Below are positions 36,912 to 48,795 of a stretch of 64,000 bases of DNA, in pieces. Origin of the DNA: an uncultured Euryhalocaulis sp. GTDB lineage: Bacteria; Pseudomonadota; Alphaproteobacteria; Caulobacterales; Maricaulaceae. The notes under the pieces were generated by a model. That model worked only from the letters and a program-made list of their open reading frames with translations. It did not search any database and had not been told where the DNA came from. The stretch spans positions 1 to 64,000 of the forward strand of contig CAJXKJ010000012.1 in assembly GCA_913055605.1 (NCBI GenBank), given 5' to 3'. Every line of letters starts with the position of its first letter. Position 1 is the first letter of the stretch. Both the position numbers and the translations under genes were made by a program.

Positions 36912-37655
36912 TCAGGCCGCCTGGCTCAGGCGGAAATACAGCCCGTCCGGCAGCATCCCGATCGTTCTGATGATCGCGGCCAGCCGCATCGGGAACGCCG
37001 TACGGAACCGCCGTCCGCGCATCGCCTTCACGACCCGCCGGGCGGCCTCTTCCGGCTCCATCAGGAACGGCATGGAAAAACTGTTCTTGTCGGTCAGCCG
37101 CGTGCGGATGAAGCCGGGGTTCATCAGCTGAACGGTGAAGGCCTCCGGGTCCAGATCAGCGCGCAGATTCTCCGCCATATGGATCACCCCAGCCTTGCTG
37201 GCGCCGTAGCCGGTGGCGTTGGGCAGGCCCTTCAGCCCGGCCAGCGAGCCGATCAGCACGATGTGTCCGCCGCCGCGCGCGGCCAGGCCCGGCATCGCTG
37301 CGCCGAGGACGCGCGCCGCGCCGGTGAAATTCACGTCGCACATCGCCTCGACGGATTTCATGTCCCAGTCTTCCGCCCCGGTGGGCTCGTAAAGCCCGGC
37401 ACAATAGACCAGCCCGTCGATGGGCGGGACGCCGTCCAGCGCCGCGATGACACTGTCGGGGTCGCGCACGTCGCATGGCGCGATATGCGCGACCCCGGGC
37501 AGCGCGGCCCCCACGGCCTCAAGCTTTTCCCGCCGGCGGGCGGACAGCACCAGCGACGCGCCGGCGCCTGACAATTCCTGCGCGAGGGCTTCGCCCAGCC
37601 CGTCGCTCGCGCCCACGATCCAGTAGCATTTGCCCTCGAAGGACCGGCCGGTCAT
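36912..37655 (-). CDS. SDR-family oxidoreductase in the RpoE lipid operon
   Basis: The 247-residue short-chain dehydrogenase has WIVGASDGLGEALAQ (cofactor loop), a middle YCAGLYE in place of NNAG, the catalytic Ser in IGSLAG and YGASKAG. The C-terminal FLMEPEEAARRVVKAM is typical of SDRs that work on lipid-like substrates. It is the last gene of a five-gene operon with overlapping ends (ATGA with the gene before) headed by a flavoenzyme. A role in fatty-acid or membrane-lipid modification is inferred from that context. Confidence 0.87.
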   Translation of the reverse strand: MTGRSFEGKCYWIVGASDGLGEALAQELSGAGASLVLSARRREKLEAVGAALPGVAHIAPCDVRDPDSVIAALDGVPPIDGLVYCAGLYEPTGAEDWDMKSVEAMCDVNFTGAARVLGAAMPGLAARGGGHIVLIGSLAGLKGLPNATGYGASKAGVIHMAENLRADLDPEAFTVQLMNPGFIRTRLTDKNSFSMPFLMEPEEAARRVVKAMRGRRFRTAFPMRLAAIIRTIGMLPDGLYFRLSQAA

Positions 37656-38164
37656 TCCGCCTCGCCAAGCAGCTTTCGTGTGAAACCCGGGCTGCTGCTG
37701 TTCTCGCTCAGCCAGATGCCGAAAAAGATCCGGTCGAACGCCGGCGCGCTCAGCTCGCAGGTCTTTTCGCCGTTCAGATAGAAGGTCGCCTCGTTCGCGC
37801 CCGCGCTGACGCCGGTGATGCGGTCGCCGTCCTGCACATCCGGGATGCAGGCGGCCAGGTCATCGCGGAGCGGCTCGAAATTCTCTTCGTCTTCACCGGT
37901 GATGTGCGCCATCTGGTCGAACGAGGCGTTGATGATGCGCTCGGCGCGGATGTCGTGGTGATAGGTGAGCGTCAGCGCGAACGGCCGTTCCCACATGAAG
38001 TCGCCCCCCGGCGCGAACAGCGCCGCGTCATAGATGCTCAGCGGGCCGAAGCGATAGGTCGCCTGACCCACCAGCTCGAATTCGCCGTCGTCCGCCGCGT
38101 GCGCGCCGCCGGCCGCCAGGGCGGCGGCAAGGAACAGTGCGGCGGCGGGGCGGCGGTCAGGCAT
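37652..38164 (-). CDS. Chalcone-isomerase-like secreted protein
   Basis: The 170-residue product has a signal peptide ending AGGAHAAD. The fold pattern is that of bacterial chalcone-isomerase-like proteins: FGPLSIYDAALFAP, FALTLTYHHDIRAERI, FYLNGEKTCEL and the C-terminal FFGIWLSENSSS...FTRKLLG. Such bacterial proteins generally lack flavonoid isomerase activity and may bind fatty acids, as related plant proteins do. ATG 38164 overlaps the CFA-synthase gene by 8 bp and starts a clean signal peptide. It is probably a periplasmic lipid-binding member of the operon. Confidence 0.83.
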   Translation of the reverse strand: MPDRRPAAALFLAAALAAGGAHAADDGEFELVGQATYRFGPLSIYDAALFAPGGDFMWERPFALTLTYHHDIRAERIINASFDQMAHITGEDEENFEPLRDDLAACIPDVQDGDRITGVSAGANEATFYLNGEKTCELSAPAFDRIFFGIWLSENSSSPGFTRKLLGEAE

Positions 38165-39320
38165 GCTGTAGCTCCACTTGGACGACATCGATATTGCGGT
38201 TGGCGGCGAAGCCGGCGGCGCAGGTATCCAGATAGAAGCGCCAGCCGCGCAGGAAGGGGCGCTTGTAGCCGCGCTCCTCCAGCTCCGGCGCGATCTCGCC
38301 GAAGCGCACGCTCCACTGGCGCAGCGTGCGTGCATAGTCCTGGCCGAAGCGGAACATCTCACCCATCGCCATGCCGGCTTTCTCGGCGCAGCGTCTGATC
38401 TGGTCGGGGGAGATCAGCATCCCGCCGGGGAAGGTGTATTGCCGGATGAAGTCGGTGTTCTTCCGGTAATAGTCGAAGGCGTGATCCTCGATGATGATCG
38501 CCTGCAGCGCGGCGCGGCCCTTGGGCGCCAGACGTTTGCCGATCGCGCCGAAATAGGCGGGCCAATAGCGCTGGCCCACCGCCTCGATCATCTCGATGGA
38601 GACGATGGAGTCGAACTGGCCCTCCACATCGCGATAATCCTGCAGGCGGATATCGGCCCGCCCGTCCAGGCGCTTCGTCGCGTATTCGTGCTGGGCGTCG
38701 GACACGGTGATGGCCGTGACCTCGCGGTTCTGGTCCGCGGCGCGTTCGGCGAACCCGCCCCAGCCGCAGCCGATTTCCAGCGTGCGCGGACCGCCTTCGC
38801 CCGTCACCTCCAGCAGCCGGTCGTATTTGCGCCACTGGGCGTCTTCCAGCGTGTCGCTCTCCGTGCCGAAAATGGCCGACGAATAGGTCATGCTGGGGTC
38901 CAGCCAGCGCGAATAGAAATCGTTGCCCAGATCGTAATGGCTGCGGATGTTCCGCCGCGAGCCGGAGCGGCTGTTGCGGCGCAGAACCCGGTCGGACAGC
39001 AGGAACAGAAGCCGCTGCAGGAAGGCGCCGCCGAACGGGCCGTGCGTCAGATGCTCGTTTGCGATGGCCAGGCCCGCCAGCGCGTCCAGGTCCGGCGTGT
39101 CCCACCATTCCTCGGCATAGGATTCGCCAAGGCCGACATCGCCGCGCAGCGCCAGCGCGCTCAGCGTCCGCCAGTCGCGAATCTCCATATGGGCCTCGGG
39201 CTCGCCGCCGCCGAAAATGCGGTGCTGGCCGTCGGGCGTATGAAGATGCAGCGTTCCGGTCTCGATGCGGTCGAGCATTGCGAAGAACCGGCCGGCGGCC
39301 GCGGGTTGCGTCTGGGTCAT
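38157..39320 (-). CDS. Cyclopropane-fatty-acyl-phospholipid synthase-family methyltransferase
   Basis: The 387-residue protein has the CFA-family marks: NIRSHYDLGNDFYSRWLD, SMTYSSAIF, the SAM-binding LEIGCGWGGFAE, SIEMIEAVGQRYW, and the late FRFGQDYARTLRQW. It transfers methyl from SAM to unsaturated lipid chains. In Rhodobacter sphaeroides the RpoE-ChrR regulon includes CFA-like enzymes, and some are tied to methylated or furan fatty acids, so this copy may do more than cyclopropanation. It overlaps the DUF1365 gene by 4 bp (ATGA) and is expected to be induced by the divergently encoded sigma factor. Confidence 0.9.
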   Translation of the reverse strand: MTQTQPAAAGRFFAMLDRIETGTLHLHTPDGQHRIFGGGEPEAHMEIRDWRTLSALALRGDVGLGESYAEEWWDTPDLDALAGLAIANEHLTHGPFGGAFLQRLLFLLSDRVLRRNSRSGSRRNIRSHYDLGNDFYSRWLDPSMTYSSAIFGTESDTLEDAQWRKYDRLLEVTGEGGPRTLEIGCGWGGFAERAADQNREVTAITVSDAQHEYATKRLDGRADIRLQDYRDVEGQFDSIVSIEMIEAVGQRYWPAYFGAIGKRLAPKGRAALQAIIIEDHAFDYYRKNTDFIRQYTFPGGMLISPDQIRRCAEKAGMAMGEMFRFGQDYARTLRQWSVRFGEIAPELEERGYKRPFLRGWRFYLDTCAAGFAANRNIDVVQVELQHA

Positions 39321-40081
39321 CGTGAGATCTCTTGGCTGGGTGGCGTTGGACGTGGACGAATCACGGCGCCTTTCAGCTTCAGCTTAAGCGCCTGCCAGTA
39401 GATCAGGGCGATAACCCGCGCAGCCCCGAAGGGGAAGCGCAGAAACGACGCCACAACGCCACGCGGAGTGAGCGGGGACAATTTCGCGTGCAGCGTGGCC
39501 AGAAGCCCGTCATCCGTCGCGCTGTCATAGCGGATGCTGACCGCGACGGTCCGCTCCTGTTTGTGGAAGCGGAACGTGTAGCCGCCGTCCACGGGCTGGA
39601 ACGGCGAAACGTGGAAAATCTTGCGCACCCGGATCTCGTCGCCGGGCCGGATCGGGCTCAGATCGGGATGCGCGCAGAAATAGGCGTGCCGGTCGCGGTG
39701 GACGTTATTCACCTCAGCCAGCACGGCTGACAGCCGCCCGGCGGCGTCGTGGAAGAACCAGAAGCTGACCGGATTGAACAGGAAGCCGAGGCAGCGCGGC
39801 TGGGTCAGCAGAAAGGTCTCCCCGAACGGATCCAGTCCGAAATTGCGGCGCACCCGCGCGGCGAATTCGGTAAAGCTGGACTTCCCGTCAGCATGGTCGC
39901 TTTCCCGCACCGACCACAGCGCGGGCAGGCGGGGCGCCGCCGGATTGGCGCGGTCGTTGGCCGCGCGATCCACATCGATCAGCACGTAGTCGACGCCATA
40001 GCGGAAGGCGTTGCGCACGCCGCCCTTGCGCCCGTGAAACACGCGGGTGCGCGCCAAACGGATGCCGGGAATGGCGCTCAC
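39317..40081 (-). CDS. DUF1365 protein
   Basis: The 254-residue protein starts with GTG at 40081 inside the stop of the flavoenzyme gene (GTGA). DUF1365 marks are RTRVFHGRKGGVRNAFRYGVDY, the central PRCLGFLFNPVSFWF, AEVNNVHRDRHAYF and KIFHVSPFQPVDGGYTFRF. Its function is not firmly established, but it almost always sits between a FAD amine-oxidase-like gene and a CFA-synthase-like gene, as here. It therefore probably acts on the same lipid chain. The frame is open further upstream, but only antisense to the flavoenzyme gene. Confidence 0.88.
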   Translation of the reverse strand: MSAIPGIRLARTRVFHGRKGGVRNAFRYGVDYVLIDVDRAANDRANPAAPRLPALWSVRESDHADGKSSFTEFAARVRRNFGLDPFGETFLLTQPRCLGFLFNPVSFWFFHDAAGRLSAVLAEVNNVHRDRHAYFCAHPDLSPIRPGDEIRVRKIFHVSPFQPVDGGYTFRFHKQERTVAVSIRYDSATDDGLLATLHAKLSPLTPRGVVASFLRFPFGAARVIALIYWQALKLKLKGAVIRPRPTPPSQEISR

Positions 40082-41388
40082 GCCAATGCCCGGCGGTCTT
40101 CGGCGGCGAATGCGCCCTCGATCATCTGCGCGGCGGCCAGACCGCTGGCCATACCGTCTTCGTGGAAGCCATAGCGGGTATAGGCCCCGGCGAACCAAGT
40201 GTTCCGCATGCCCTGGATCGCGGGCAGCTGCGCCTGCGCACGCAGCGCGGCCAGATCGAATTGCGGATGGTCGAAGCGCGCCTCGTCATAGATCAGCGAC
40301 TCGTCGATCGGCCCTGCGGGGTTCAGCGTGACGAACAACGGCGTTTTCCGCGGAATGTGCTGAAGCTGGTTCATCCAGTAGGTGAACGAGCCTCCGGTCT
40401 CGTCCGCGCCCGACTTGCCGCGATAGACCCAGCTGGACCAGGCCAGCCGCCGGCGCGGCATGTGCCGCGCGTCGCCGTGCAGCACTGCGCGGTTGGGGCG
40501 GTAGCGCAGCGCGCCCAGAACGGCGTTCTCCTCCGGCGTCGGATCGGCCAGCAGCGCGTGCGCCTGATCCGAGTGGCAGGCCATCACGACCCCGTCGAAC
40601 ATTTCGCGCTCCGAGCCCTTCGGTTTCACCCAGGGGGCGGGCGCGCGGCCCACCGCCTCGGTCGGGCAGCCGGTGCGGATCGTCACGCGGCGGAAGGTCA
40701 GCGCGCGCTCCAGCCGGGACACATATTCCTGACTGCCGCCGGCGATGGTCAGCCAGTTCGGCCCCTGGGTGGCTGACAGCAGGCAGTGATTGTCGAAGAA
40801 GCGTACGAAGCTCTGCGCCGGGAAGCGATCCATGTCGTCGCGCGCGGTGCTCCAGATCGCGCCGGCCAGCGGATATAGATAACGGTCGCGGAAATCGGCG
40901 GAGAGATTCATCCGGCGCAGTAGCGCGCCCAGTGTGATCTCGGGCCCCTGCGCGGCGGCCATGGCGTCGCGGTTGAAACGCAGGATGTCGGACACCAGAC
41001 GCCAGAAGCGCGGGCTGACCGCGTTGCGCGGATCGGCCAGCAGCCGGTGCGGGTCCGACACGCCATATTCAAATGCTCCGCCGTCCAGCGAGACGGCAAA
41101 CGACATGTCCGTCGGCCGGGTCGGAACCTCCAGCGTTTCGAACAGCGCCGTCAGATGCGGATAGGTGTTGGTGTTGAACACCATGAAACCGGTGTCGACG
41201 GGGATGTCCCGGTGCGGCCCGGCCATCACGGTGCGGGCGTGCCCGCCCAGGCGCGGCTCGGCCTCGAACAGGGTCACGCGCGCCTTGCCCGACAGCGCAT
41301 AGGCCGCGGCCATGCCCGATATGCCCGCGCCAATGACGGCGATATGGGGCCGGGCGGGTTCGGAGGCGGCGTAAAGTCCTGGGCGCAT
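40078..41388 (-). CDS. FAD-dependent amine-oxidase-like protein, first gene of RpoE lipid operon
   Basis: The 436-residue protein has the FAD fingerprint IAVIGAGISGMAAAY, the second strand LFEAEPRLGGHARTV, and the C-terminal FAD motif WFAGAYTRYGFHEDGMASG. It belongs to the flavin amine-oxidase/NAD(P)-binding Rossmann group that regularly neighbours DUF1365 and CFA synthase. AGGAA lies 6 nt before ATG 41388. A TGATCC-N16-CGTAGT promoter lies 26 bp upstream, so expression should depend on the divergent ECF sigma factor. It likely oxidises a methylated fatty chain. Confidence 0.9.
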   Translation of the reverse strand: MRPGLYAASEPARPHIAVIGAGISGMAAAYALSGKARVTLFEAEPRLGGHARTVMAGPHRDIPVDTGFMVFNTNTYPHLTALFETLEVPTRPTDMSFAVSLDGGAFEYGVSDPHRLLADPRNAVSPRFWRLVSDILRFNRDAMAAAQGPEITLGALLRRMNLSADFRDRYLYPLAGAIWSTARDDMDRFPAQSFVRFFDNHCLLSATQGPNWLTIAGGSQEYVSRLERALTFRRVTIRTGCPTEAVGRAPAPWVKPKGSEREMFDGVVMACHSDQAHALLADPTPEENAVLGALRYRPNRAVLHGDARHMPRRRLAWSSWVYRGKSGADETGGSFTYWMNQLQHIPRKTPLFVTLNPAGPIDESLIYDEARFDHPQFDLAALRAQAQLPAIQGMRNTWFAGAYTRYGFHEDGMASGLAAAQMIEGAFAAEDRRALA

Positions 41389-41414
41389 GATCGTTCCTGT
41401 GCGTCGTAGGGAGG

Positions 41415-41442
41415 ACTACGGCGCCCGGGTCCGGCCGGATCA
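41415..41442 (-). promoter_or_regulatory. Predicted RpoE/ECF11-type promoter for the lipid operon
   Basis: Read on the minus strand, TGATCC (41442-41437) is followed after exactly 16 bases by CGTAGT (41420-41415), ending 26 bp before ATG 41388. The RpoE/ChrR (ECF11) promoter described in Rhodobacter has TGATCC and CGTA-type boxes at this spacing. A second copy on the other strand serves the sigma-factor gene. Confidence 0.75.
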
Positions 41443-41479
41443 GTTTGTGTGAAAAATTCTTCACGGGCCGCGCCTCTGG

Positions 41480-41507
41480 TGATCCGCCGCGCGGCATCCG
41501 ACGTATC
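41480..41507 (+). promoter_or_regulatory. Predicted autoregulatory RpoE/ECF11-type promoter of the sigma-factor gene
   Basis: TGATCC (41480-41485), 16 bases, then CGTATC (41502-41507) gives the same elements and spacing as the opposite-strand copy at 41415-41442. It lies upstream of the ECF sigma gene, so the sigma factor probably controls its own transcription. The ATG at 41514 falls where transcription would begin. Confidence 0.75.
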
Positions 41508-41624
41508 GACAGCATGGTGAACGCACTCTCCATTTCCGCCCTGCACCTGCCGCCGCCCTGCGCTAGGATCGGTTCCGCCGCGGCGGTGTTGCCGATTCCG
41601 CGGCGCATTCGCCACGGAGGTCGC

Positions 41625-42197
41625 GTGGAGGGAGACGCCGGCGAGCTTTGGGAGGCGCGGCTGTCCGCCGTGGCGATCCAGCGCGACCGCACGGCGTTCG
41701 CCGAACTGTTTTCGCATTTCGCGCCGCGCATAAAGGCGGTGATGATCCGGGGCGGCATGGCCGCCGACATGGCGGAGGAGATCGCGCAGGAGGCGTTCGT
41801 CGCCGTGTGGCGCCGCGCCTCGACCTTCGATCCCGAACGCGCCAGCGCCTCGACCTGGATATTCGCCATCGCCCGCAACAAGCGAATCGACCGCCTGCGG
41901 CGGGAGGCGCGGCCCCAGCCGGACCCCGAAGACCCCGCCTTCGCGCCCGACGAACCGGATGCGGCGGACACGATGATGACCGCGCGCGAACGTGCGGACC
42001 GGGTGCGCAAGGCCATGGCGACGCTGCCGCCGGATCAGCGCGACGTCGTCATGCGGTCCTATTTCTCCGAACACTCGCATTCGCAGATCGCGGAGGATCT
42101 GAACGCACCGCTCGGCACGGTGAAGTCGCGCATGCGCCTGGCGATGGAGCGCCTGCGCGCCGCGCTGGAGTCCGAACATGAGGAGGGCTCGCTGTGA
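41625..42197 (+). CDS. rpoE: ECF RNA polymerase sigma factor, RpoE/ECF11-like
   Basis: The 190-residue protein has sigma region 2 (FAELFSHFAPRIKAV, AEEIAQEAFVAVWRRASTFD, ASTWIFAIARNKRIDRLRRE) and region 4 (LPPDQRDVVMRSYFSEHSHSQIAEDLNAPLGT, a helix-turn-helix). GTG 41625 is chosen because GGAGG lies 4 nt upstream and the family starts with an ELWEARL-type helix. An in-frame ATG at 41514 would add 37 residues and could be read from a leaderless message. A GTGA overlap couples it to a ChrR-type anti-sigma gene, which places it in the singlet-oxygen-responsive group. The symbol is by similarity. Confidence 0.88.
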   Translation: MEGDAGELWEARLSAVAIQRDRTAFAELFSHFAPRIKAVMIRGGMAADMAEEIAQEAFVAVWRRASTFDPERASASTWIFAIARNKRIDRLRREARPQPDPEDPAFAPDEPDAADTMMTARERADRVRKAMATLPPDQRDVVMRSYFSEHSHSQIAEDLNAPLGTVKSRMRLAMERLRAALESEHEEGSL

Positions 42198-42853
42198 CGT
42201 CCGTCCGGCATCCAGATCAGCACCCAGGAGATGAAGTCCTGCTGGCCTATGCGTCCGGCGCGCTCGGCGCGGGCTGGGATCTGGCTATCGCCGTGCATCT
42301 GGCGCTGTGCCCGTCCTGCCGCGCGCGCGCGACGGACTACGAATCGCTGGGCGGTGCGGCGCTGGATGACGCAGCGCCCGAGGCGCTGCACGAACCGGTC
42401 GATATCGCCGCCCTGATCGAACGGGCGGACGCCGTGGAGGAGAAGCGCCCGGCCGCGCCGCCGTCCGGCGGGGCGCCGGTGTTTCCGGAGCCTTTGCGCT
42501 CCCTGACCGGCGATCAGACGGACATCAGATGGTCCCCGGTCGGTGGCGGCGTGCGGCAGAAAATCGTGTTGCAGGACGGCGGCGTCGTCGCGCGCCTGCT
42601 CCATATCGCGCCGGGCGTGGCTGTGCCCGAACACGGCCACCGGGGCCTCGAAATGACCGCGGTGCTCAGCGGCGGCTATTATGATGGGCGGGACGCGTTC
42701 CAGCGCGGCGACATCCAGGTCGTCGCGCACGAGGGCCCGCACAAGCCTGTGGCGATGAAGGACGCGCCCTGCGTCTGTCTGGTGGTCACCGACGCGCCGG
42801 TCCGCTTTCGCGGCTTGCTGCCCCGGCTGCTTCAGCCCTTCATGAAAATCTGA
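42194..42853 (+). CDS. chrR: ChrR-family zinc anti-sigma factor
   Basis: The 219-residue protein starts with GTG within the sigma stop codon, with GGAGGG upstream. The N-terminal anti-sigma domain has His10, His35, Cys39 and Cys42 with the same spacing as the zinc ligands of Rhodobacter ChrR. The C-terminal cupin (about 110-205) has PEHGHRGLEMT and AHEGPHKP, matching the second metal site needed for the singlet-oxygen response. It should hold the sigma factor inactive until singlet oxygen or organic peroxides release it. The symbol is by similarity. Confidence 0.9.
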   Translation: MTSVRHPDQHPGDEVLLAYASGALGAGWDLAIAVHLALCPSCRARATDYESLGGAALDDAAPEALHEPVDIAALIERADAVEEKRPAAPPSGGAPVFPEPLRSLTGDQTDIRWSPVGGGVRQKIVLQDGGVVARLLHIAPGVAVPEHGHRGLEMTAVLSGGYYDGRDAFQRGDIQVVAHEGPHKPVAMKDAPCVCLVVTDAPVRFRGLLPRLLQPFMKI

Positions 42854-45094: not shown

Positions 45095-46702
45095 TCAGTC
45101 GGCTTCGCTCTCGGGCGCCATCTGGCGCTCGTACAAGGTGTCGTACAGATCCATCTTGGCCTGGCTGATCGACGGCCCCGCGCCGGACCCGTCGGCGTCC
45201 AGCACCATGGCCTCGGTCGGGCCGAGGTCGTCGAATTCCGGCCACTCCGGCAGGCCTGGCCCATTGGGATCGCCGGTCGCGGCGAAATTCACCCAGTATT
45301 GCGACACCTGGTCGGCGAAGGCCTCCTCGCGCGGGTCGCCGCTGGCCAGTTCCGGGACGCTCGGGTCCGGGAAGACGCGCGGCGGCGCCAGATTGTTGAA
45401 CACATAGGGGATTTCCACCGTGTGCACGGCGCCGCGCGCGCGGGGCTCCTCCACCGGCGGCTCGTGCGTGAAATAATACAGCCAGGCGCGTTGGCCGATC
45501 TCTGCCTGGTATTTGGCGAACAGGCGCATATGCCAGGCCATGTTGTCGCCCATCAGCGCCTGGCTGTTCTCGGTCGCCTGCGCGTCGGTCTCGGCGGGGT
45601 AGGCGGCCAGGCCCAGCTCCACCAAATCGCCCCATTGCCGCTCGGCGCGTTCGGTCCAGGCGTCAACCGTGGTCGGCGCGCCGGCGAAGAAACCTTCATC
45701 GCGGTTGGAGCCGACGATCACGTCGACCGGGTTCTGGCGCCCTTCCGCGAAGGTCACCGACAGGTCCTCGGGAATGATCCAGCCGTCGACGATCATGCCC
45801 TGGCGCGGCAGTTTGGTCAGAGCCTCTTCGGCGGGCAGGGCGCGCAAATCCGCCAGACTCGCAATGCCCAGCTCGTCCGCGGCTTCGGAGGACTGGGCCT
45901 CCGCCGATTGCAGGCCGCGCATCGGCGCCATGGTCAGGCCCATCCAGGCGCCGCTCTCCGCGATGGCGCGATGGAACAGGCCGCGCGCCGGGGGCGATCC
46001 GGCAAGGCCGCCGATCATCGCCGCGCCGGCGGACTCGCCGAAAATGGTGACCCGGTCCGGGTCGCCGCCAAAGGCCTCGATATTGTCCTGAACCCATTGC
46101 AGCACCGCGATGCTGTCGGCCAGCGCGTAATTGCCGGATGCGCCGTGCGGCGACTCTTCCGACAGCGCCGGATGCGCCAGGAAGCCCAGCGAGCCCAGGC
46201 GGTAATTGAACGTCACCAGCACGACGCCCTTGGCGGCCAGCTGGTCGCCCCAATTATGCGGGCTGGACCCGGCGCCTTCGTAATAGGCGCCGCCATAAAT
46301 CCAGACCATCACCGGGCGGTCTTCGCCGGCCGCTTCGGCGGCGGTCCAGACATTCAGGTTCAGGCAGTCCTCGCTCTGGGGCGGGCTGTCCGGCAGGTCG
46401 ACGGAGACGTTCACCCGGCCCTGGCCGTTGGGCTGCATGCAGACCGGCCCGAACTCCGACCCGTCGCGCACGCCGTCCCAGGCTTCGGGCGGCTGCGGCG
46501 GCGCCCAGCGCAGCGCGCCGACCGGCGGCGCGCCGAAGGGGATGTTCTTGAACGCGGTCACGCCCTCGACCTCGCCCGGCGTGCCGGACACAAGGCCGGT
46601 CTGCGTCATCACCGGTTCGTCGAACGCGGCGTGCGCCGGGGCGGCGACGGCGATCGCGGCGGCCGCCGCCATCGCGATGCGGGCGCAGGTTTTCACGGGC
46701 AT
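45095..46702 (-). CDS. Secreted type-B carboxylesterase in the paralogue operon
   Basis: The 535-residue product has a signal peptide ending APAHAAFD. Type-B marks are FKNIPFGAPPVGALRW, EDCLNLNVW, the oxyanion-hole VWIYGGAYYEG (Gly-Gly-Ala rather than Gly-Gly-Gly), nucleophile Ser224 in IFGESAGAAM, and the His region GAVHTVEIPYVF. ATG 46702 shares one base with the preceding stop (TGATG) and has GGAGG 7 nt upstream. The Gly-Gly-Ala oxyanion loop could shift its preference to bulkier esters. The neighbouring secreted proteins may act on the same substrate. Confidence 0.92.
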   Translation of the reverse strand: MPVKTCARIAMAAAAAIAVAAPAHAAFDEPVMTQTGLVSGTPGEVEGVTAFKNIPFGAPPVGALRWAPPQPPEAWDGVRDGSEFGPVCMQPNGQGRVNVSVDLPDSPPQSEDCLNLNVWTAAEAAGEDRPVMVWIYGGAYYEGAGSSPHNWGDQLAAKGVVLVTFNYRLGSLGFLAHPALSEESPHGASGNYALADSIAVLQWVQDNIEAFGGDPDRVTIFGESAGAAMIGGLAGSPPARGLFHRAIAESGAWMGLTMAPMRGLQSAEAQSSEAADELGIASLADLRALPAEEALTKLPRQGMIVDGWIIPEDLSVTFAEGRQNPVDVIVGSNRDEGFFAGAPTTVDAWTERAERQWGDLVELGLAAYPAETDAQATENSQALMGDNMAWHMRLFAKYQAEIGQRAWLYYFTHEPPVEEPRARGAVHTVEIPYVFNNLAPPRVFPDPSVPELASGDPREEAFADQVSQYWVNFAATGDPNGPGLPEWPEFDDLGPTEAMVLDADGSGAGPSISQAKMDLYDTLYERQMAPESEAD

Positions 46703-47706
46703 CAATTCGCCTCCACGCTGGCCTGCGCGCGCTGGGCGCGGGAGGCGCTGATATAATCGCGCACCATGTAGTTCGCCTCATGGCAGGCGTATTCGTACAT
46801 GCCGAAACCGTCGTTCCGCCGCCACGGCATGTGGACCGTCCACGGCGCCTCGTAGAGGTCCATATCCGTGAAGGTCATTTCGTAATCGATCGTGTCCGGG
46901 CCCGTCGGCGTGAACCGCTCCACGATGGTCGTGTTTTCGCCGACCGGCATATTGTTCTCGCGCGGCGCGCCGACCGTGCTGCCGCCATTCACGGCCGTGG
47001 GGCCGGGGTGCAGATTGGTCGTCTCCACGACCAGCGTGTCGCCCTCCCACCGGCCGCGGCTCTCGCCCATCCAGTGCAGGATCTGGGCGGGCAGGGCCGT
47101 GCGCCCGTCGGTGGGGATGATGCGCGTCTCGTGGATCATTTCCAGCTGCAGGGCGACCGTGCCCGGCGCCTGAAAGATGCGGATGCCGTTATTGTACATG
47201 AAGGGGAACATCGACCCCGGCATGCCGCGCGTGATGCAGCGGTCCCAGGTGTCGAAATCGGTCACCCAGTCGAAGGCGATGTCCCGCTGCCAAGTGGACC
47301 GCATGGCGTCGGACCGGCGCTGGCCCTCCGCGGTCAGGGCCGGCAGCTGGCCGTCCGCCGGGTCGGTGATCAGGGAGGTGCGCCGGTTCGGCTTTCCCGT
47401 CTCGGCCCAGTGGCCCATCCCGATCTTGTCCTGGGCGTCCTCGTTCTCGTAGCGCGCGGCGGCGGCCTCCAGCCGGGCCTCGCGCTCCATGTATTCGGCG
47501 TCGCTGAGAAACTCCCGCATCCCGAATTCGTCGGGCCGCTGGAACGGCGTGCCGGTCAGGTGTCCCACTGGCCAGGTGCCGCGGATGTCCGGCTCCCCCC
47601 ACGGGGTCTTTGGCGGGCTGTAGTCGTCCTCCTGCGCCTGCGCGGCGCCGAGCGCGAGTACGCCAGCCGCCGCGGCGGCGCAGAGGATCGCCGCGCGCGC
47701 GTCCAT
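46702..47706 (-). CDS. Secreted protein of unknown function, tandem paralogue B (334 aa)
   Basis: The signal peptide ends AAQAQED. The mature protein begins PWGEPDIRGTWPVGHLTGTP, then has ARYENEDAQDK, GHWAETGKPNRRTSLI, a central FDTWDRCITRGMPGSMFPF and the C-terminal WMGESRGRWEGDTLVVETT. It is clearly homologous along its length to the next protein upstream. A pair of Cys (in DRCITRG and YACHEAN) is conserved in both and could form a disulfide. The ATG overlaps the preceding stop by one base (TAATG). The fold resembles widely spread hypothetical secreted proteins of soil and marine bacteria. No function assigned. Confidence 0.82.
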   Translation of the reverse strand: MDARAAILCAAAAAGVLALGAAQAQEDDYSPPKTPWGEPDIRGTWPVGHLTGTPFQRPDEFGMREFLSDAEYMEREARLEAAAARYENEDAQDKIGMGHWAETGKPNRRTSLITDPADGQLPALTAEGQRRSDAMRSTWQRDIAFDWVTDFDTWDRCITRGMPGSMFPFMYNNGIRIFQAPGTVALQLEMIHETRIIPTDGRTALPAQILHWMGESRGRWEGDTLVVETTNLHPGPTAVNGGSTVGAPRENNMPVGENTTIVERFTPTGPDTIDYEMTFTDMDLYEAPWTVHMPWRRNDGFGMYEYACHEANYMVRDYISASRAQRAQASVEAN

Positions 47707-48698
47707 TACTCGGCGCTGGCCTGCTGGCGCTGGGCGCGGGAGGCGGAGATGTAGTTCGGAATCTGCTCGTTGCCCTCGTGGCAGGCGTATTCGAAGATTC
47801 CGTAATTATCGTCCCGCACCCAATCCAGATGCGCCGTCCAAGGCTGGGTGTACACGACCGGATCGTTATAGGTGATCTCATAGTCGATCGTGTCCGGCCC
47901 GGTCATGGTCAGCCGCTCGATGACGTGCGCCTGTTCGCTGACCGGCGTGTCGTTCTCGGGCGGGGAGGACGTGGTGCCGATATTGGTCGCCGACGGTCCG
48001 GGTTTCAGATTGGTCGTCTCGATAACCAGCGTGTTTTCGTCTTCCCAGTGGCCGCGGCTTTCGCCGATCCAGTGACGGATCTGGGAGGGCAGAGCGGGCG
48101 AGCCGTCGGTCGGGATGATCCGGGTCTCGTGCACCATTTCCATCTGCAGGGCGACCAGGCCCGGCGCCTGGAAGATGCGCATGCCGTTATTGTACTGGAA
48201 CGGGAACATCGAGGCCGGCAGGCCGCGCGTGATGCAGCGGTCCCAGGTATCGAAATCCGTCACCCAGTCGAAATCCTGGCCGCGCCGCCAGCTGGAGCGC
48301 ATCTCGGCGCTCCGCCGTTTGCCCTCTTCGGTCATCTCCGGCAGCCGGCCGTTGGGCGGATCGATGATCAGGGAGGTGCGGCGGTTCGGCTCGCCCATCT
48401 CGGCCCAGTGGCCCATGCCCATCGTGTCGCTGGAGTCTTCGTTTTCATAACGCGCGGCGGCGGCTTCGATCCGGCCGGCGCGCTCGGCGTATTCTTCGTC
48501 GGTCAGGAATTCGCGGTCGCCGAATTCCTCGGGCCGCTGCAGCGGCGTGCCGTTCAGATGGTCGATCGGCCAAGTGCCGCGAAAATCCGGTTCGCCCCAT
48601 GCCGTCTGGTCGGGCGTATAGTCCTGGGCCTGGGCGGCGCCGGCGGAAATGGCGCAACACGCGACGGACATGGCCAGCGCAACTCCGCGAATGGTCAT
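47706..48698 (-). CDS. Secreted protein of unknown function, tandem paralogue A (330 aa)
   Basis: This first gene of the operon has a signal peptide ending AAQAQDY. It shares the paralogue B pattern: AWGEPDFRGTWPIDHLNGTP, RYENEDSSDT, GHWAEMGEPNRRTSLI, DTWDRCITRGLPASMFPF, WIGESRGHWEDENTLVIETT and EYACHEGNEQIPNYISASRAQ. I would place identity to B above half. ATG 48698 is chosen because AAGGA lies about 8 nt upstream and the signal peptide starts there. Function unknown; joint secretion with an esterase suggests a role in handling an external ester or polymer. Confidence 0.82.
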   Translation of the reverse strand: MTIRGVALAMSVACCAISAGAAQAQDYTPDQTAWGEPDFRGTWPIDHLNGTPLQRPEEFGDREFLTDEEYAERAGRIEAAAARYENEDSSDTMGMGHWAEMGEPNRRTSLIIDPPNGRLPEMTEEGKRRSAEMRSSWRRGQDFDWVTDFDTWDRCITRGLPASMFPFQYNNGMRIFQAPGLVALQMEMVHETRIIPTDGSPALPSQIRHWIGESRGHWEDENTLVIETTNLKPGPSATNIGTTSSPPENDTPVSEQAHVIERLTMTGPDTIDYEITYNDPVVYTQPWTAHLDWVRDDNYGIFEYACHEGNEQIPNYISASRAQRQQASAE

Positions 48699-48753
48699 CG
48701 GGAGATCCTTTCTTGGTGGTGTGACGGGGCCGGGGCGCAGCGGACAGACTGGG

Positions 48754-48795
48754 CCATGCACGCCCGGCGGCACGCCGGACGGGAGTCCATGCACG
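48754..48795. promoter_or_regulatory. Paired direct repeat upstream of the secreted operon
   Basis: CCATGCACG occurs at 48754-48762 and again at 48787-48795, a 33-bp period close to three helical turns. Both copies lie upstream of the first gene of the secreted operon (ATG 48698). Such phased repeats are typical of operator sites, but the regulator is unknown. Confidence 0.35.

Follow-up and report, generated by a model that had tools for sequence, protein, structure and literature searches.

In R. sphaeroides the sigma factor RpoE, controlled by ChrR, has been credited with about 13 direct targets, and the conserved core regulon includes rpoE-chrR itself together with furan fatty acid genes; furan fatty acids are in turn reported to be required for ChrR turnover by singlet oxygen (PMC6852236). 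For the SigE-ChrR pair of Caulobacter, the same review names singlet oxygen and organic hydroperoxides as reported inducers (PMC6852236). Two of the furan fatty acid proteins have been described by domain, UfaD (RSP1091) with an NAD-FAD-binding domain and UfaO (RSP1090) as a DUF1365 protein (PMC7380195). The promoter element TGATCC-N16-CGTA corresponds to the consensus that ChIP-seq gave for an RpoE/ChrR-type sigma (PMC5507510) and to two S. oneidensis promoters with mapped transcription starts, those of rpoE2 and pgpD (PMC4336711).

Here we have analysed a stretch of 64,000 nucleotides from a contig of an uncultured Euryhalocaulis sp. (the window), in which two mirrored copies of this element stand between an ECF sigma gene and a putative lipid operon (Table 1). 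We read the gap between these genes as the control region from which an ECF11-type RpoE-ChrR stress switch is transcribed in both directions, with a leaderless sigma transcript, and we put the probability of this reading at roughly 0.8. A circuit of mirrored promoters is already known in kind, and the window is one more instance of it.

Table 1. Predicted features of the sigma-ChrR locus and the facing lipid operon, in window coordinates
Feature	Position	Strand	Basis
SDR (short-chain dehydrogenase/reductase), last gene of the run	36912..37655	-	PF00106 E 2e-40; ATG overlaps preceding stop
Chalcone-isomerase-like (chi), fourth gene of the run	37652..38164	-	PF16036 E 8e-9
SAM-dependent fatty-acyl methyltransferase, CFA family (cfa or ufaM-like)	38157..39320	-	PF02353 CMAS E 1e-69
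ufaO-like DUF1365 protein	39317..40081	-	PF07103 E 1e-61; GTGA overlap with ufaD stop
ufaD-like FAD enzyme (fatty acyl desaturase by analogy)	40078..41388	-	Pfam Amino_oxidase/NAD_binding_8; SD-like AGGA before ATG
ufaD-side ECF11-type box TGATCC-N16-CGTA (-35/-10)	41417..41442	-	Exact match, conserved in relatives
Sigma-side ECF11-type box TGATCC-N16-CGTA (-35/-10)	41480..41505	+	Exact match, conserved in relatives
Predicted leaderless start ATG and predicted +1 of sigma mRNA	41514..41516	+	9 bases after CGTA; relatives' spacing
ECF sigma factor (RpoE/SigE type), long form, 227 aa	41514..42197	+	Pfam Sigma70_r2 and r4_2; 2q1z_A
Possible internal start GTG, 190-aa short form	41625..42197	+	GGAGG at 41616-41620 precedes
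ChrR anti-sigma factor	42194..42853	+	GTGA overlap with sigma stop; TIGR02451; Cupin_7; 2z2s_B

An initial reading of the sequence alone, hereafter the sequence-only reading, had claimed an ECF sigma factor with a ChrR anti-sigma, and this identification is borne out by matches to solved structures and curated families. The best PDB match of the sigma factor is 2q1z_A, RpoE (E 2e-47), followed by SigK (E 2e-20), and that of ChrR is 2z2s_B (E 9e-48); we take the solved RpoE and ChrR chains to be the R. sphaeroides proteins. ChrR scores 178.3 bits against TIGR02451, over the cut-off of 124.5, and 147.7 against the narrower NCBIfam equivalog NF051881, under its cut-off of 300. Its translation further shows HxxxCxxC and HxHxxxE motifs, presumably the ligand residues of the zinc anti-sigma domain and the cupin domain. 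ECF11-type features thus present are sigma regions 2 and 4, an adjoining ChrR (zinc anti-sigma plus cupin) and a TGATCC-N16-CGTA self-promoter, the ECF11-type assignment resting on the nearest solved chain, the ChrR neighbour and the promoter box.

The minus-strand genes are closely packed from 41388 down to 36912, in the order ufaD-ufaO-methyltransferase-chi-SDR, and coordinates place GTGA or ATGA overlaps at sigma/chrR, ufaD/ufaO, ufaO/methyltransferase and chi/SDR. The ufaD-like (NAD/FAD enzyme) and ufaO-like (DUF1365) genes occur together and were identified by domain and order; the methyltransferase matches the CMAS family, with NCBIfam CFA models matched under their curated cut-offs. For ufaO the start was picked from the GTGA overlap (the Pfam scan used end 40102), and for chi it was picked by eye (the Pfam scan used end 38167). 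The UfaD encoded in this switch (36912-42853) shares 56-60% identity with four homologues from two other families within the order, against 46-48% with the two same-family homologues aligned, and a same-genus genome (G001) yields a ChrR match of only 31%; horizontal gain of the switch, or its loss in relatives, is possible. Elsewhere in the window, two neighbouring ORFs at 46702-48794 encode what by eye are related proteins with a common WGEPDxRGTWP stretch.

The boxes themselves lie on both strands exactly as the sequence-only reading had described them, with TC as the two bases after CGTA on the plus strand and GT on the minus strand. They are the only two exact copies in the 64-kb window, where 0.07 would be expected from dinucleotide shuffles, and none of 100 shuffled windows held two. 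A whole-genome scan for the element, suggested alongside that reading, returns five exact sites in the 3.16-Mb assembly, with one site for the reversed control pattern; as site counts only, the TGATCN form gives nine sites versus one for the control and the GATCC form nine versus three. Of the three exact sites outside the gap, two by eye lie within coding sequence. The scan adds a single promoter-like site (L005 1501-1526; G000:C48:10756-10781), followed after 47 bases by the ATG of a SAM methyltransferase gene, which is a candidate extra member of the regulon. Because of this further exact box and the number of direct targets known in R. sphaeroides, the description of the switch as self-contained is loose.

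To place the boxes among relatives, three sets of loci were surveyed. The order set comprises 92 loci, 91 with a sigma match, chosen from the 230 genomes, out of 299, that gave a match (172 of them over the cut-off) as 12 + 80 loci, taken in order of score with members of the window's own family added. The class set comprises 60 loci, 57 with a sigma match, drawn, one per genome, from the highest-ranking places listed for the 114 of 289 genomes over the cut-off; the named set is the best 80 of 583 confirmed ufaD loci, 43 with a sigma match in the locus. Counts are of exact boxes alone, up to about 420 bases ahead of the sigma gene. The loci are weighted towards related species, and a Hirschia maritima contig without a sigma-side box is probably in twice (L089, L188).

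Among loci with a sigma match, an exact sigma-side box stands in 46/91 of the order set, 43/57 of the class set and 36/43 of the named set (best 80 of 583), giving 125 loci with a box where about one chance match was worked out for the 191 sigma-side stretches of about 480 bases each. The order set leaves 45 of 91 loci without such a box, 26 of which have neither box nor a divergent ufaD. Across the three sets ufaD is divergent from sigma in 119 loci, with an exact ufaD-side box in 72 and both boxes in 57; other exact boxes number 34 in the 1.49 Mb of surveyed loci, which is the density behind the chance figure just given. Ten fixed bases do at times arise by chance, and three of the five genome sites lie elsewhere, two of them by eye within coding sequence, so that the paired boxes might be chance matches and the genes under other control. 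We reject this explanation and give it almost no credence, because position and spacing are conserved, with at least one box in 106 of the 119 divergent-ufaD loci. The same conservation agrees with two claims of the sequence-only reading, that the element is an RpoE/ECF11 promoter pattern and that the lipid operon is its target: the pattern equals the published ChIP-seq consensus, and furan-fatty-acid-type genes (ufaD-ufaO-methyltransferase) lie behind a box conserved opposite sigma.

Boxes were also seen in other arrangements. One locus (L037) holds a second mirrored pair of exact boxes, 2402 and 2425 from the sigma anchor, beyond chrR. At four others (ChrR-oriented positions L014 1407, L018 1415, L019 1242 and L029 1356), an exact box stands slightly upstream of a ChrR-like gene, and a crude sigma pattern, which failed on some genuine sigma genes as well, showed no sigma between the two; near the L014 ChrR-like gene, rechecked as L045, tblastn gave no sigma match. 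These four ChrR-like genes are possible stand-alone targets.

On the sigma side, the distance from box to start codon proves to be nearly fixed. An in-frame ATG or GTG lies 9-11 bases after CGTA at 104 of the 125 exact sigma-side boxes in relatives (order 42/46, class 29/43, named 33/36), with 96 ATG and 8 GTG, and these 104 leaderless-type loci all differ in sequence. ATGs at +9/+10 number 93 in any frame and 92 in the open sigma frame (41 order, 24 class and 27 named boxes; the exception is L105). Named loci with a start at +9/+10 include Shimia, Silicimonas, Mesorhizobium, Thalassospira and Neptunomonas japonica, the last of which we take to be a gammaproteobacterium. ATGs in any frame also cluster at +14 (11 in the order set, 1 in the class set and 8 in the named set, 20 in all); none of these is in the sigma frame, and by eye they come from ATGCATG-like starts. 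As controls, an ATG at the sigma-side spacing follows only 2 of the 72 ufaD-side boxes and 1 of the 34 other exact boxes; were the ATG part of the promoter itself, the ufaD-side boxes would show it too.

Mapped starts of related systems locate the expected +1. An S. meliloti RpoE9 ECF box ending in CGTC lies 9 nt upstream of a mapped TSS (PMC3616915), and for Caulobacter SigT-type boxes the published position is the -35 region, in one case -34 relative to the TSS (PMC4287350), from which +1 is calculated to be the tenth base past the box. With mapped starts about 9-10 bases past related ECF boxes, the +1 of the sigma mRNA is therefore expected at the A of the ATG, give or take one base. Since an in-frame start occurs at this expected +1 in most relatives that have an exact sigma-side box and rarely in the controls, the comparison suggests that the self-promoted sigma mRNA is leaderless and starts at its start codon, ATG 41514. 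Caulobacter is reported to have 375 leaderless mRNAs, with a translation efficiency about equal to that of leadered ones (PMC4117421), and S. meliloti 171 leaderless starts (PMC3616915); furthermore, leaderless genes have earlier been predicted from a -10-like signal located some 10 bp ahead of the start codon (PMC3160421). It is this fixed spacing from the sigma gene's own -10 to an in-frame start that is the useful part of the present comparison, since it leads to the prediction that a well-studied type of sigma is translated from a leaderless mRNA and extended at its N terminus. We found no discussion of a leaderless rpoE-chrR transcript or of the conserved geometry in the open-licence literature searched, and nothing on the rpoE start in the passages of PMC10673084 that were consulted. 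In nine loci of one genus (L038, L039, L108, L110, L115, L119, L123, L124 and L126), the first nine bases of the sigma ORF, ATGTACGCT, are identical and the rest of the tail diverges; this conserved start is perhaps a signal for leaderless initiation.

Placing the sigma start at ATG 41514 also changes the size of the gap. The sequence-only reading had given 236 bp (41389-41624), which assumes GTG 41625 as the sigma start, and the comparison with relatives moves that start upstream; the intergenic gap is therefore probably 125 bp (41389-41513), and the sigma would carry an N-terminal extension. The segment before the FAELF motif has 61 residues in the window's long form and 36-111 in relatives, and is weakly conserved. 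Codon-position counts for the extension are 312/337/347 in the largest group, where third-position bias is almost absent, and its residues are hence hardly constrained; a third-position excess is clear in only two of seven groups (46/44/73 and 4/0/6). The solved RpoE chain starts 12 residues ahead of the aligned region, near the short-form position. Folding gave no sign that the 5' end is structured: the 147 nt that begin at ATG 41514 fold no better than shuffles (z 0.62).

These properties of the extension bear on an alternative in which the +9/+10 ATG is unused and translation begins at GTG 41625, giving a 190-aa sigma behind a leader of about 110 nt. The poor conservation of the extension is in keeping with it, as is the GGAGG ahead of the GTG; moreover, 90 of the 104 leaderless-type relatives keep an in-frame ATG or GTG close to where an ECF sigma canonically starts, 22-36 residues ahead of the FAELF motif of region 2 (with an SD-like tetramer in 32 of the 104). 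The same argument was made for B. japonicum ecfF, of another ECF group, whose TSS overlaps the annotated ATG and whose authors preferred a downstream start for that reason (PMC3420878). An unused ATG should not hold frame, yet 92 of 93 lie in the open sigma frame, and the ATG is nearly missing at the same promoter where it faces ufaD. This in-frame conservation disfavours GTG 41625 as the sole sigma start, and we retain it as a rival that is improbable. The remaining 21 of the 125 sigma-side boxes show no start codon in the +9 to +11 range; inspection by eye finds in several (e.g., L044, L153, L164) an SD-like stretch before a more distant start, and at such loci one start type could have been replaced by another.

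The internal start need not exclude the upstream one. Two isoforms, a leaderless long sigma and a short sigma initiated internally on the same or another transcript, would elaborate the leaderless reading and be compatible with it. SD-like tetramers precede 39 of 178 in-frame internal ATG/GTG codons versus 8 of 118 out-of-frame ones (Fisher p 5e-4, for loci that are not independent), and internal ATGs in the 104 leaderless-type loci number 127 in frame versus 102 in the two other frames, which is above chance. In one genus, all nine loci have an SD-like stretch and an in-frame ATG exactly 69 nt inside, and SigR/SigR' of Streptomyces offers a precedent (PMC4921905). Set against this, just 32 of 104 loci carry an SD-like tetramer near the canonical start, and a crude consensus scan of 41300-41700 found no sigma-70-like promoter from which a short transcript could arise. 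We consider two isoforms in the window possible but doubtful, and only tentatively extend to ECF11-type sigmas across Alphaproteobacteria and some others the combination of a leaderless long start that depends on the self-promoter with an internal short start. If true, the sigma induced by stress would not be the same as the resting form, with stability or ChrR binding as possible points of difference; the induced form would rely on leaderless initiation and gain a loosely conserved N-terminal tail, and a protein model beginning at the internal start would miss it.

Under the leaderless reading of the switch, stress would release sigma from ChrR, and free sigma with RNA polymerase would then fire both mirrored boxes. 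By analogy with relatives, the signal may be light, singlet oxygen or an organic peroxide. From the sigma-side box, transcription of sigma and chrR would amount to positive autoregulation buffered by added ChrR, as in analogous systems; this transcript is predicted to begin at, or one to two bases from, ATG 41514 and to be translated without a leader, yielding a sigma with its N-terminal extension and, via the GTGA overlap, ChrR alongside. The ufaD-side box would transcribe ufaD-ufaO-methyltransferase-chi-SDR, with a predicted +1 that leaves ufaD a leader of about 20 nt containing the SD-like AGGA. The lipid enzymes would alter membrane fatty acids, methylated or furan fatty acids being the product predicted by analogy.

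Compared with known systems, the window comes close to the RpoE(SigE)-ChrR switch (ECF11) of R. sphaeroides, with which it shares an RpoE-type sigma, ChrR, and ufaD- and ufaO-like genes; indeed, the Pos19 RpoE promoter, given as TGATCC-N15-GCGTA (PMC5036791), is the same element as the window box. The two differ in that the window operon contains a CFA-family methyltransferase, whereas ufaM of R. sphaeroides is RSP2144, outside the RSP1091-1087 operon (PMC7380195). In R. palustris all three furan fatty acid genes are clustered, RPA2569-2571 being ufaM, ufaO and ufaD (PMC7380195). Caulobacter, with its SigE-ChrR, probably belongs to the same order as the window. As regards the putative isoforms, Streptomyces SigR/SigR' is an autoregulated ECF sigma whose alternative isoform comes from one of two promoters (PMC4921905), a type with two translation starts that give a stable and an unstable form; SigR belongs to another sigma group and has another anti-sigma, and the isoforms of the window are predicted ones.
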